Positions 33,190 through 44,712 of a stretch of 64,000 nt of DNA are shown piece by piece. A program made the position numbers and the translations under genes. The DNA lies in NCBI RefSeq assembly GCF_000262545.1, contig NZ_JH660660.1, positions 706,975 through 770,974 on the forward strand, in the 5' to 3' direction. Every line of letters begins with the position of its first letter. The stretch's first letter is position 1. This stretch comes from Prevotella bivia DSM 20514 (lineage in GTDB: Bacteria; Bacteroidota; Bacteroidia; Bacteroidales; Bacteroidaceae). The notes beneath the pieces were generated by a model. That model was not told the DNA's origin. It made no database searches and saw only the letters and a list, made by a program, of their open reading frames with translations.

Positions 33190-34851
33190 TTAATACTTAA
33201 ACGATGACCCACCTAAAAACTCGCGAAGCAAAGATGTTGGAGGAAGATTTTTATTAGAAAGTGGTGAGAAATAGCGTAAGAACTTACGCAGGCGATAAGC
33301 CTCGGCATACTCTTCGCAGTTTTCAGGCACCTGCTCCAATATTTCAATAGCTTGCTGCTTGATTACAGCTAGTTCAAAAAGCATAGCAGTGTTAAACATC
33401 ACATCGGCTTCTTCCTGATAAGGGAAAATCCATTTATTTTCGCCCGCCCGCACCGATGGCCAGCGGTGAATAGTGTCCTTAGCCGAACAACCACGATACT
33501 TATAATCGCGCACAATGCGACGAAGCAAGCGGTTATCGGTAGTAGGAATATAGTTGTGATCGTCGAGGAGAATAGTAGTGAGGGCAGAAGCATATATCTT
33601 AAACTTCTTTTCATCAGGTATTTGCTGGGTAAGATGAGGGTTGAGCGCATGAATACCCTCCACGATGAGGATATTATGCTCTGACATCTTTAGCCGTTTA
33701 CCACTCTTCTCGCTCACGCCCGTTTGGAAGTTATACTTAGGTAGCTCTACCTCTTCACCACAGAAAAGCGCATTAAACTGCTCATTGATGAGCGGAATAT
33801 TAAGCGAATAAAGACTCTCATAGTCGAGTTCTCCTTTTTCATCCTTCGGTGTATCGGCACGATTAACGAAATAATCGTCTAACGAAATCTGAATAGGTTT
33901 TATCCCACAAGCTAGCAACTGCACCGAAAGACGTTTGCAGAAAGTGGTCTTTCCACTCGATGATGGTCCTGCAATAAGGACTACTCTCACCTTATCATTG
34001 GCTGCTATGGTGTCGGCTATCTGTGATATTTTCTTCTCTTGCAATGCTTCGCTCACATTTACCAAGTCGGTAGCCAATCCCTTTGACACTGCTTCATTAA
34101 AGTCGCCCACTGTGCTAATACCTAAGAGGTTTTGCCACTGGTGGTGTTCCTTAAATACTTCAAACATCTTATCTTGCTTGATGAGTTCGCCCAATTGCGA
34201 GGGATCTTTCACCGAAGGAATACGCAACAACACCCCATCATAATATTGTTTTAGTCCAAAAAGGGTGAGCTGAGCCGTGTTGGTGAGCATAGAGCCATAG
34301 TAATAATCGGTGTAATCGTCAAGCACATAATACACAGTGTAAAGCGAACTAGAGTTTTTCAACAGTTTTACCTTAGCCTCATCGCCCAATTTGGCAAACA
34401 TCTCAATAGCCTCCTCCGTAGTAGCCTCAAAACGCTGAAGCGGTAAATGGGCATCAATAATCTGCTGCATACGCTCTCTTATCTTATCGACATCAGCTTT
34501 GGTAACTTCATGTCCCAAACGAAGATTGCAGTAATAACCATTTGAAACAGGAATATCAATAACCACCTCACTACCCGAATAGAGATCGTGAACAGCCTTA
34601 CATAGCACCATAAAGAGCGACCGCGTGTAAGTACGGATGCCTGAAGATGTGTAAAGATCCAAATATTCTATATCCTTATCATGATATACACGATAATGTA
34701 ATCCTTCCACCTTATTATTTACCCTTGCGCTGACAGGTCCGTACTGGAGACCTAAATCAAGCTGTTTATAAATCTCAGCAAGCGTACTTCCGATAGGAGC
34801 ATTTAGCACCTTCCCATTATTTTTACAACGAATTCTAATTGTCTGTCCCAT
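33190..34851 (-). CDS. nucleoside (uridine-type) kinase with N-terminal TGS-like domain
   Basis: Probable cytosolic nucleoside kinase. The 553-residue protein begins with a ubiquitin-like TGS-type domain (about 1-70, RIRCKNNGKVLNAPIGSTLAEI). A segment like the second domain of threonyl-tRNA synthetase follows. The C-terminal half is a phosphoribulokinase/uridine kinase fold with P-loop GPSSSGKTTFCKRL at about residue 293, followed by ISLDDYFVNR and IVEGIHALNP. This fusion is common in Bacteroidota and Firmicutes; the phosphate acceptor is not certain. Upstream lie three tandem 70-bp hairpin units. Confidence 0.88.
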   Translation of the reverse strand: MGQTIRIRCKNNGKVLNAPIGSTLAEIYKQLDLGLQYGPVSARVNNKVEGLHYRVYHDKDIEYLDLYTSSGIRTYTRSLFMVLCKAVHDLYSGSEVVIDIPVSNGYYCNLRLGHEVTKADVDKIRERMQQIIDAHLPLQRFEATTEEAIEMFAKLGDEAKVKLLKNSSSLYTVYYVLDDYTDYYYGSMLTNTAQLTLFGLKQYYDGVLLRIPSVKDPSQLGELIKQDKMFEVFKEHHQWQNLLGISTVGDFNEAVSKGLATDLVNVSEALQEKKISQIADTIAANDKVRVVLIAGPSSSGKTTFCKRLSVQLLACGIKPIQISLDDYFVNRADTPKDEKGELDYESLYSLNIPLINEQFNALFCGEEVELPKYNFQTGVSEKSGKRLKMSEHNILIVEGIHALNPHLTQQIPDEKKFKIYASALTTILLDDHNYIPTTDNRLLRRIVRDYKYRGCSAKDTIHRWPSVRAGENKWIFPYQEEADVMFNTAMLFELAVIKQQAIEILEQVPENCEEYAEAYRLRKFLRYFSPLSNKNLPPTSLLREFLGGSSFKY

Positions 34852-34870
34852 AGTCTGTTTTTATTTTTAA

Positions 34871-35086
34871 AAGTTAGTGCAAACGAGCGAAATACGAAAG
34901 TTTACTTTCAAGTATTTCCGAGTGCAGCCTAACTTATGTAAAGTTAGTGCAAACGAGCGAAATACGAAAGTTTACTTTCAAGTATTTCCGAGTGTAGCCT
35001 AACTTATGTAAAGTTAGTGCAAACGAGCGAAATACGAAAGTTTACTTTCAAGTATTTCCGAGTGCAGCCTAACTTATGTAAAGTTA
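34871..35086 (-). repeat. three tandem 70-bp hairpin units in the leader of the kinase gene
   Basis: Units at 34871-34940, 34941-35010 and 35011-35080, plus 6 bases of a fourth; the middle unit differs by one base. On the minus strand each unit reads CATAAGTTAGGCTGCACTCG, then GAAATAC-tt-GAAAG-taaa-CTTTC-GTATTTC, and ends GCACTAACTTTA. Outer GTTAG/CTAAC, middle GAAATAC/GTATTTC and inner GAAAG/CTTTC pairings nest. The array ends about 20 bases before the kinase start codon. It is homologous to the 66-bp array at 43277. Confidence 0.85.
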
Positions 35087-43036: not shown

Positions 43037-43262
43037 ACTATCTTCCTCACTATAACCAATCACCTTTCTTGCGATAAAAGGTAACCTTTAATCTGATAAA
43101 AGCTTATCTTTGAAAAGTATTTTTAATTTATTTTTACACTAAAATCAAATTAAAAATAAAACAAAAATAAATTATTTTTGCACACAAAAGTTTATGTTTT
43201 ACTTATCGAAAGGTTATCTTTTACCAGCAAAAAGACAAACTTTTACTACTTCATTGAATATC
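43037..43262. repeat. dispersed AT-rich repeat region before the TSUP array
   Basis: Contains AAAAGGTAACCTTT (43077-43090), AAAAGCTTATCTTT, TTTTTAATTTATTTTTA (about 43122) and the inverted AAAAATAAATTATTTTT (about 43164-43182), then AAAGGTTATCTTTT. Same vocabulary as at 8.7, 33.0 and 54.0 kb. No gene. Confidence 0.65.
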
Positions 43263-43269
43263 TTTTACT

Positions 43270-43475
43270 TACCTTTGCATAAGCTAGGCGGCACTCAGCA
43301 ATTTGAAAGTAAGCTTTCATTGCACTCGCTGGCACTAGCTTTGCATAAGCTAGGCGGCACTCGGCAATTTGAAAGTAAACTTTCATTGCACTCGCTGGCA
43401 CTAGCTTTGCATAAGCTAGGCGGCACTCGGCAATTTGAAAATAAATTTTCATTGCGCTCGCTTGCACTAGCTTTG
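43270..43475 (+). repeat. three tandem 66-bp hairpin units with promoter boxes, leader of the TSUP gene
   Basis: Units start at 43277, 43343 and 43409 (period 66). Each begins GCATAAGCTAGGCGGCACTC, then GCAAT-tt-GAAAG-taaa-CTTTC-ATTGC, and ends GGCACTAGCTTTG. The -7 consensus TAnnTTTG occurs at 43270-43277, 43336-43343, 43402-43409 and 43468-43475, once per junction. The third unit has GAAAA/TTTTC in place of GAAAG/CTTTC, keeping the pairing. The last -7 box is 18 bases before the TSUP ATG. Homologous to the 70-bp array at 34871. Confidence 0.85.
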
Positions 43476-43493
43476 TTTTAAAATTTTAAAATA

Positions 43494-44327
43494 ATGACAG
43501 TTTTAACATTTACGCTGATCTTGATCCTTGCTGCATTTCTTGCAGGATTATTAGGATCGCTCACTGGACTAGGTGGCGGAGTGGTAGTGATACCCGTACT
43601 CACCTTATGCTTCGGTATCGACTTCCACTATGCTATTGGCGCAGCCCTTATAGCCTCTATTGCAACCTCTTCAGGCTCGGCTAGTGCCTATGTGCGCGAA
43701 GGTATTACGAATATCCGACTAGGCATGTTCCTCGAAATTGCAACCACCATTGGGGCTGTATGTGGAGCGTTCATCGCTATTTGGATGCCTACAAATATCA
43801 TTGCCGTTATTTTTGGTGTTGTAATGATTATGACAGCCGTCCTTCAGCAACGTCGCAAAGTGGATCACGAAAATGTTGTAGGAAGCACAATGGCTAAAAA
43901 GTTACAACTCTACGGTAGCTATCCCACCAAAGAGGGCATGAAGAGTTACCAGCTCACCAATGTAGCTGGTGGCTTCTCGATTATGCTTAGTGCAGGTGTG
44001 CTATCGGGACTATTAGGTATTGGTAGTGGCGTTTTGAAAGTATTAGCAATGGATGCTGCTATGAAAGTACCATTTAAGGTTAGCACCACCACTAGCAACT
44101 TTATGATTGGCGTTACAGCCGTTGCTTCGGCAGTGGTTTATCTTCAACGGGGATATATCGACCCAGGTATAGCCTTTCCTATTATCATTGGCGTGTTAGC
44201 AGGTTCGATGTCGGGGGCTCGATTGCTTAAACGTATGAATGTAAGCGTATTGAGAAAGATCTTCTCGGTAGCTATTGCTTTGGTGGCATTGAATATGATT
44301 TATAACGGAATAATGGGTAAATTCTAA
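43494..44327 (+). CDS. TSUP (TauE/SafE) family membrane transporter
   Basis: Inner-membrane transporter, probably an exporter of sulfite, sulfonate or another organic anion; the family does not define the substrate. The 277-residue protein has about eight hydrophobic segments and the paired TSUP motifs GLLGSLTGLGGGVVVIPVLTL (about 19-39) and SGLLGIGSGVLKVLAMDAAMKVPFKVS (about 171-197). DUF1634 follows after 4 bases and is the usual partner. Its leader holds the three 66-bp units. Confidence 0.9.
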   Translation: MTVLTFTLILILAAFLAGLLGSLTGLGGGVVVIPVLTLCFGIDFHYAIGAALIASIATSSGSASAYVREGITNIRLGMFLEIATTIGAVCGAFIAIWMPTNIIAVIFGVVMIMTAVLQQRRKVDHENVVGSTMAKKLQLYGSYPTKEGMKSYQLTNVAGGFSIMLSAGVLSGLLGIGSGVLKVLAMDAAMKVPFKVSTTTSNFMIGVTAVASAVVYLQRGYIDPGIAFPIIIGVLAGSMSGARLLKRMNVSVLRKIFSVAIALVALNMIYNGIMGKF

Positions 44328-44331
44328 GCAC

Positions 44332-44712
44332 ATGGAAGCAAACAATGAAAACAAGAAGATGCAGTTGCTCATCAGCTCTACACTTCGTATTGGTGTCATC
44401 ACCGCATGCACCATCGCTCTAGTGAGTGGTATCTATTATTTAATCAGTCATGGTATGGATCCGATGCCTGACTATCAATCGTTTCATGGCGAAACAACAA
44501 GCCTCACCACGCTATCGGGGATCTTCACGGGAATGCTTCGTATGCAGGCAGAAAACTGGATCCAATTCGGTGTTATCGTGCTGATGCTCACCCCTATTTC
44601 GCGAATTGTCCTTTCCCTTTTCGACTTTGGTATTCAGCGAGATTGGCTCTATGTAGGCATCACAGCCATTGTACTATTCGTAATTGTAGCCAACTCTATA
44701 GGTGGGTTTTAG
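44332..44712 (+). CDS. DUF1634 membrane protein
   Basis: 126-residue inner-membrane protein with three hydrophobic segments (about 14-36, 70-95 and 103-123). MRMQAENWIQFGVIVLMLTPISRIVLSLFDF matches DUF1634, which is regularly encoded next to TSUP transporters and is probably an accessory subunit. It starts 4 bases after the TSUP stop codon, so translation is likely coupled. A terminator hairpin follows. Confidence 0.85.
   Translation: MEANNENKKMQLLISSTLRIGVITACTIALVSGIYYLISHGMDPMPDYQSFHGETTSLTTLSGIFTGMLRMQAENWIQFGVIVLMLTPISRIVLSLFDFGIQRDWLYVGITAIVLFVIVANSIGGF

Follow-up and report, generated by a model that had tools for sequence, protein, structure and literature searches.

A gene for a TauE/SafE-type sulfite exporter of Prevotella bivia DSM 20514 is preceded by three 66-bp repeats, each carrying a hairpin and ending in a promoter element, which raises the question of what these repeats are and how they came to lie there. 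The first-pass annotation of the window (the whole stretch of 64,000 nucleotides analysed here) regarded each unit as a promoter plus a leader hairpin, whose copy number could tune expression. We consider it likely that the units are instead copies of a non-autonomous miniature insertion element, which inserts into sigma-ABfr promoters with fixed polarity, its site lying within TTTG[C/T]A and directly behind the -7 element.

A dispersed hairpin family in Prevotella

The window carries two arrays of the family, with the following features.

43270..43277, plus strand: native promoter -7 box TACCTTTG, point of array insertion; the P. amnii ortholog has TACCTTTG and no array
43278..43343, plus strand: unit 1, 66 bp; hairpin 43281-43341; new -7 box TAGCTTTG at 43336-43343
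43344..43409, plus strand: unit 2, 66 bp; hairpin 43347-43407; -7 box TAGCTTTG at 43402-43409
43410..43475, plus strand: unit 3, 66 bp; hairpin 43413-43473; gene-adjacent -7 box TAGCTTTG at 43468-43475
43494..44327, plus strand: TauE/SafE-type TSUP sulfite exporter gene, first after the array (PF01925, E 1.8e-50)
44332..44712, plus strand: DUF1634 gene, next in the exporter operon (PF07843, E 5e-29)
34869..35086, minus strand: array of the same family with 70-bp units, native box TAACTTTA at 35079-35086 (covariance model and TRF)
33190..34851, minus strand: 553-aa ORF (MGQTIRIRCKNNGK...), starting 17 nt after the 70-bp array, its end taken from its length

As first described, four boxes stand at exact 66-base spacing (43270, 43336, 43402 and 43468), the last ending 18 nt before the ATG at 43494. 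The attribution of one box to each unit holds for 43336, 43402 and 43468 but not for 43270, which is the native promoter box and lies outside any unit. The hairpin arms that had been named are present, with the GAAAA/TTTTC change in unit 3, and so are the GTTAG/CTAAC and GAAATAC/GTATTTC changes of the 70-bp family. TRF delimits a repeat of 66 bp x 3.1 copies (95%) at 43273-43475 and one of 70 bp x 3.1 (98%) at 34870-35086, the latter being read on the minus strand, with covariance-model hits at 35009-35086 and 34869-34946. Each 61-nt fold of the window hairpins beats shuffled sequence (z -2.8 to -3.9).

A 95-aa open reading frame also runs across the array (43194-43481). It is a spurious by-product, since the 66-base repeat equals 22 codons, a multiple of three, and automatic annotation may call a gene there.

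A spaced-box pattern search followed by a covariance model built from 29 units gave 66 matches in the 2.52-Mb P. bivia genome, corresponding to about 37 arrays or single copies, 56 of the 66 at E <= 1.5e-10. Of 35 other Prevotella genomes, 32 also had matches, whereas the whole genome of P. amnii, the nearest named relative, yielded only four, all weak. In the wider order, at a stricter cut-off, occurrence is sporadic (14 of 295 genomes, that of P. bivia included); several of these copies, for instance in G354, G357 and G421, are placed at promoters in the same way and have cores that diverge further. There are 66 copies of the unit in one genome, and its pairing is kept in 96.3% of cells over 112 units, compared with 39-52% when partners are slid; the repeats of the window are therefore beyond chance, and they are one case of a dispersed Prevotella hairpin family. 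Genome-wide, as had been anticipated, the copies covary and their orientation bias is complete. The unit matches nothing in Rfam 15 at gathering score (best weak match E 1.4) and no description of its sequence was found in open-access papers, subscription literature being outside the search, so that the earlier claim of an undescribed element agrees with both sources.

Two associations with other repeats were observed. In one genome (G369, L284-L289) the hairpin copies are embedded in a dispersed repeat of about 200 bp with both flanks conserved, as though another element had captured them. A second, likewise dispersed hairpin family, CACCTGAAAGGTG...TAGCCGTGGGTTAAGCGNAACGNAGTGGAGNGCAANCTACGGATA, adjoins or interrupts arrays of the first (L047, L060, L061) and lies downstream of, or fused with, the arrays at C3:604960, C3:1696597 and C3:1840207.

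Placement behind -7 boxes and empty orthologous sites

In Bacteroides, the sigma-ABfr consensus consists of a -7 TAnnTTTG and a -33 TTTG (PMC7366714). The arrays are bound to the first of these elements. Among the 37 arrays or copies of P. bivia, 32 have a start codon behind them on their own strand, at a distance of 5-178 nt (median 34). In 31 of the 37 the box that heads the array is TANNTTTG, and for 28 of these 31 a start codon in the sense direction lies no more than 180 bp away, compared with 18.5% promoter-like sites among the TANNTTTG occurrences outside arrays in the same DNA, namely the stretches around the unit copies (P 7e-18 against all such sites and 1e-7 against the non-coding ones). 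Relatives follow the same plan: a sense ORF starts within 300 bp of 56 of 60 arrays or copies, again with a median of 34, and two copies lie directly 5′ of tRNA-Arg genes. Orientation is 87 forward to 0 reversed; two seemingly reversed copies turned out to be ordinary arrays read from the opposite strand. Purifying selection against insertions elsewhere could be a partial cause of this promoter-only location.

Some copies of the hairpin core occur outside TTTG boxes (L041 3622-3692, L332, L334, L189). They carry other outer stems, such as TTGTCG/CGACAA, and the core is thus not always tied to a promoter.

Comparison with P. amnii, whose exporter shares 90% amino acid identity with that of P. 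bivia, reveals the corresponding empty sites. Out of 23 orthologous promoters, 18 carry the TANNTTTG box without an array, in one the box is the variant TAACTTTA, another holds a decayed copy, and three lack a box. Since these 18 promoters each display a single TAnnTTTG box, the arrays are lineage-specific insertions. The cleanest example opposes P. amnii TTTTTCTTATCTTTGCATTACAAT to P. bivia TTTTTCTTATCTTTGCAT, two units, TATCTTTGCATTACAAT; at the rfbC-like gene, TATCTTTGTAGAG in P. amnii corresponds to TATCTTTGTAG, three units, TATCTCTGTAGAG. In front of the exporter gene, the box TACCTTTG of P. amnii is separated from the ATG by 16 nt, that of P. bivia by three units and 18 nt. At the site of the 70-bp array, P. 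amnii has a single TAACTTTACAT where P. bivia has TAACTTTACAT plus three units, all of which share the rare TTTA ending of the native TAACTTTACAT. A nucleotidyltransferase gene has the box without unit in about 40 other species.

At both sides of the arrays, the first and third bases behind TTTG agree (p 5e-5 and 1e-4), as expected if the target is duplicated, even though this agreement is partly expected from the native promoter consensus TTTGCATA. Inverted arms plus TTTGYAK occur on both array sides, the arms overlapping the target sequence; because element and target share sequence in this way, the length of the duplication appears ambiguous, between 5 and 11 bp.

The gpmI promoter is less simple, with an empty box in five species and units in four (P. 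bivia, G003, G025 and G028). These units are of a species-specific type, corresponding to independent insertions or to an old insertion homogenised within each species. Retention for a function could also account for their presence in four species, which counts against the insertion-element reading.

A hairpin probably kept as DNA and an incomplete promoter

The sequence of each unit forms an imperfect palindrome of 61 nt (AAGnnTAG...CTAnnCTT). At its 3′ end the -7 box is formed anew, and TTTG[C/T]A is repeated at the junctions. Across the 112 units, which come from many species, 17 of 18 pairs have changed on both sides. Mutual information adds the pairs 24-60 and 28-56, and a further pair 25-59 is suggested by its counts. 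The irregularities of the stem are also conserved in part: the bulged A65 is kept, the unpaired base 55 varies in identity, and in the symmetric CTCG/CTCG mismatch element T26, C27, T57 and C58 rank with the best-conserved bases of the unit.

Over the 18 pairs we counted 1835 Watson-Crick combinations, 27 G.U and 28 A.C, with 263 double changes. An RNA helix should favour G.U over A.C, yet the two are in the ratio 27:28; the hairpin appears for this reason to be conserved at the level of DNA and not as an RNA leader. The covariation put forward in the first-pass annotation thus stands, but its lack of a G.U preference argues against selection on an RNA leader. Arm-to-arm correction by template switching, without selection, could be another source of Watson-Crick covariation.

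The promoter content of the units is equally partial. Native promoters in the same DNA have a TTG beginning 23 or 22 bases before TAnnTTTG. About half of the units have it at -21, 1-2 bp off this native optimum, and those of the window display CTTTC at the TTG position and no TTG at a usable -33 distance. As judged from these motifs, every unit re-supplies the -7 box, a well-spaced -33 being mostly missing. The suggestion that each unit adds a promoter is borne out for the -7 box and would be no more than a hypothesis for a promoter as a whole.

These observations bear directly on the view of the units as functional modules, each a promoter plus an RNA leader hairpin whose number tunes the downstream gene. 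Every unit closes with a -7 box, transcription from the native box should begin near the first base of the hairpin, start codons follow within 5-178 bp, and gpmI has kept units in four species. On the other hand, A.C mismatches are as common as G.U pairs, the -33 is absent or off-optimum, P. amnii is devoid of nearly all arrays and two copies in relatives precede tRNA genes. Moreover, the genes behind arrays (gpmI, murG, ruvB-, metA-, mutY-, nth-like, rfbC-like and others, names being assigned by eye from N-termini) belong to no common pathway. Because the arrays are lineage-specific and stand before housekeeping genes that have no relation to one another, tuning of expression by copy number is so far without support, and we regard a regulatory module as quite improbable. 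The conserved dyad near promoters would also suit operator sites marking the regulon of a common regulator, yet with unrelated housekeeping genes, lineage-specific presence and species-specific cores this is very hard to believe. According to the insertion-element reading, effects on expression through a shifted transcription start, 5′ hairpins or extra -7 boxes would be secondary.

Array growth, candidate movers and known systems

Neighbouring units share a mean identity of 94%, compared with 81% between arrays, and tandem duplication thus occurs. However, in 5 of the 15 multi-unit arrays neighbours are only 80-86% identical and find their best matches (87-97%) in other arrays, from which it follows that the array end acts as a fresh target. 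The dispersion of the family and these mixed arrays led us to reject slippage as the sole process. Unit number differs between genomes at one orthologous site, with four units in G003 and one in G025. The unit junction CTATCTT-TGCAT-AAGATAG consists of inverted arms around a 5-nt core.

A mechanism consistent with this organisation can be proposed. The element end CTAnnCTTTG would rebuild both the -7 box and the target sequence, so that the gene would keep its -7 box while the array end would become a new target, and arrays would grow both by nested insertion and by duplicating in tandem. Most probably, the hairpin acts as folded DNA and is recognised in this form by a putative recombinase or transposase. 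More tentatively, and as one possibility among others, we picture a site-specific mini-element recognising the Bacteroidales -7 element, perhaps single-stranded in the open complex, inserting as a polar folded DNA hairpin, recreating its target together with the -7 box of the host, stacking on itself and moved in trans by a recombinase. Neither random MITE insertion nor slippage alone agrees with insertions that are polar and bound to one kind of site. Against the insertion-element reading as a whole counts that no mover is linked to the units and that no excised form was observed.

With regard to the mover, an IntDOT- or integron-type tyrosine recombinase, using either the inverted-repeat junction or a single strand in its folded form, would be a sub-case of the insertion-element reading and is a serious, if rather doubtful, candidate. 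The junction has inverted arms on either side of a 5-nt core, element and target share only TTTG[C/T]A with heterologous flanks, orientation is fixed, and the bulged bases and central mismatch recall attC. Integron attC sites carry the R-box consensus GTTRRRY at their hairpin ends. The unit ends TTTGYA/AAG do not match this consensus, and no recombinase is linked to the element. The resemblance of the junction to a recombinase core, and of the -7 box to the core of IntDOT, would be a lead and not a result.

A DDE transposase acting on a miniature inverted-repeat transposon, whose inverted ends are short and whose target duplication measures about 5 bp, would explain the near-perfect AAGATAG/CTATCTT ends and the TGYAK repeated on both sides. 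Symmetrical ends, however, predict a random orientation of the asymmetric core where 87:0 is seen, and only -7 boxes are targeted, which makes this mover unlikely.

From Y1 chemistry one would expect polar insertion behind a fixed short motif, conserved mismatches in an imperfect hairpin, and a foot that covaries with the end motif, and the units show these traits. They could accordingly be REP-like or IS200/IS605-derived elements handled by an HUH Y1 transposase (RAYT), with TTTG as cleavage site and the hairpin-foot AAG as guide; the atypical structures flanking the RAYT subclass 2.6 genes of Bacteroidetes (PMC6006769) would also suit this origin. Yet no unit lies within 1.5 kb of the 31 Y1/RAYT loci sampled in P. 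bivia and related genomes (apart from one chance-level match, E 0.34), the RAYT-type genes inspected by eye are flanked by other GC-rich hairpins, and several unit-rich genomes at least 94% complete have no Y1 gene, among them the single-contig genome G023 with 47 unit matches. We hold this origin to be poorly probable. As for P. bivia itself, its two Y1 transposases were rejected as movers, being part of an IS605-like element with ends unrelated to the unit. In two other genomes, RAYT-type Y1 genes or their neighbourhoods (L226 in G010, L229 in G027) carry GC-rich palindromes of the type GTAGGGGCG..., a different repeat family.

If the insertion-element reading is true, host-associated bacteria of a large group harbour a promoter parasite which spares promoters by rebuilding their box. 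The orthologous positions with 0-4 inserted units would then form a natural promoter series, the insertions could serve to date strain divergence, and the element would lead to a recombinase with promoter specificity. In Prevotella, predicted transcription starts, 5′ leaders and small ORFs across unit repeats call for caution.

The units share several features with known systems. Like REP/REPIN sequences and their RAYT, they are short dispersed imperfect palindromes, non-autonomous, present in many copies and with conserved mismatches. They differ by the 61-nt palindrome, by the -7 box as target, by same-orientation head-to-tail arrays and by the fact that a RAYT is neither nearby nor needed in the genome; the GTAG/CGTC-type foot is absent, the 112 aligned units having AAG...CTT followed by TG. 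The nearest repeats in Bacteroidales are BrickBuilt and PINSR, the only ones to emerge from a literature search on repeats of Prevotella and both different in unit, ends and placement. BrickBuilt, a MITE of Porphyromonas gingivalis, is also intergenic and tandem, is reported to have promoter activity and varies in unit number, but consists of 23-nt repeats in a leader/tail element with GAGACC ends and lies 49-591 nt from genes, without described targeting to -7 boxes (PMC4596501). Neither the 23-nt repeats nor GAGACC-type ends occur in our unit. PINSR of Prevotella intermedia is likewise intergenic, highly amplified and of uncertain mobility, but measures 188 bp, is limited by PCR to the intermedia/nigrescens group and is not described as tandem or promoter-placed (PMC4755523); its sequence being available as a figure only, it is by this description that it differs from the unit. 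Putative mobile promoters, as far as they are outlined in the BrickBuilt paper, spread promoter sequence by small mobile segments (PMC4596501); compared with that outline, the promoter here would be the target, of which only the -7 part is re-supplied.

CTnDOT is a large conjugative element with its own integrase, IntDOT, and the target core GTANNTTTGC. This core would resemble the -7 box, and a short common core with heterologous flanks would be a feature shared with the units, which are, in contrast, gene-free and only 66 bp long.
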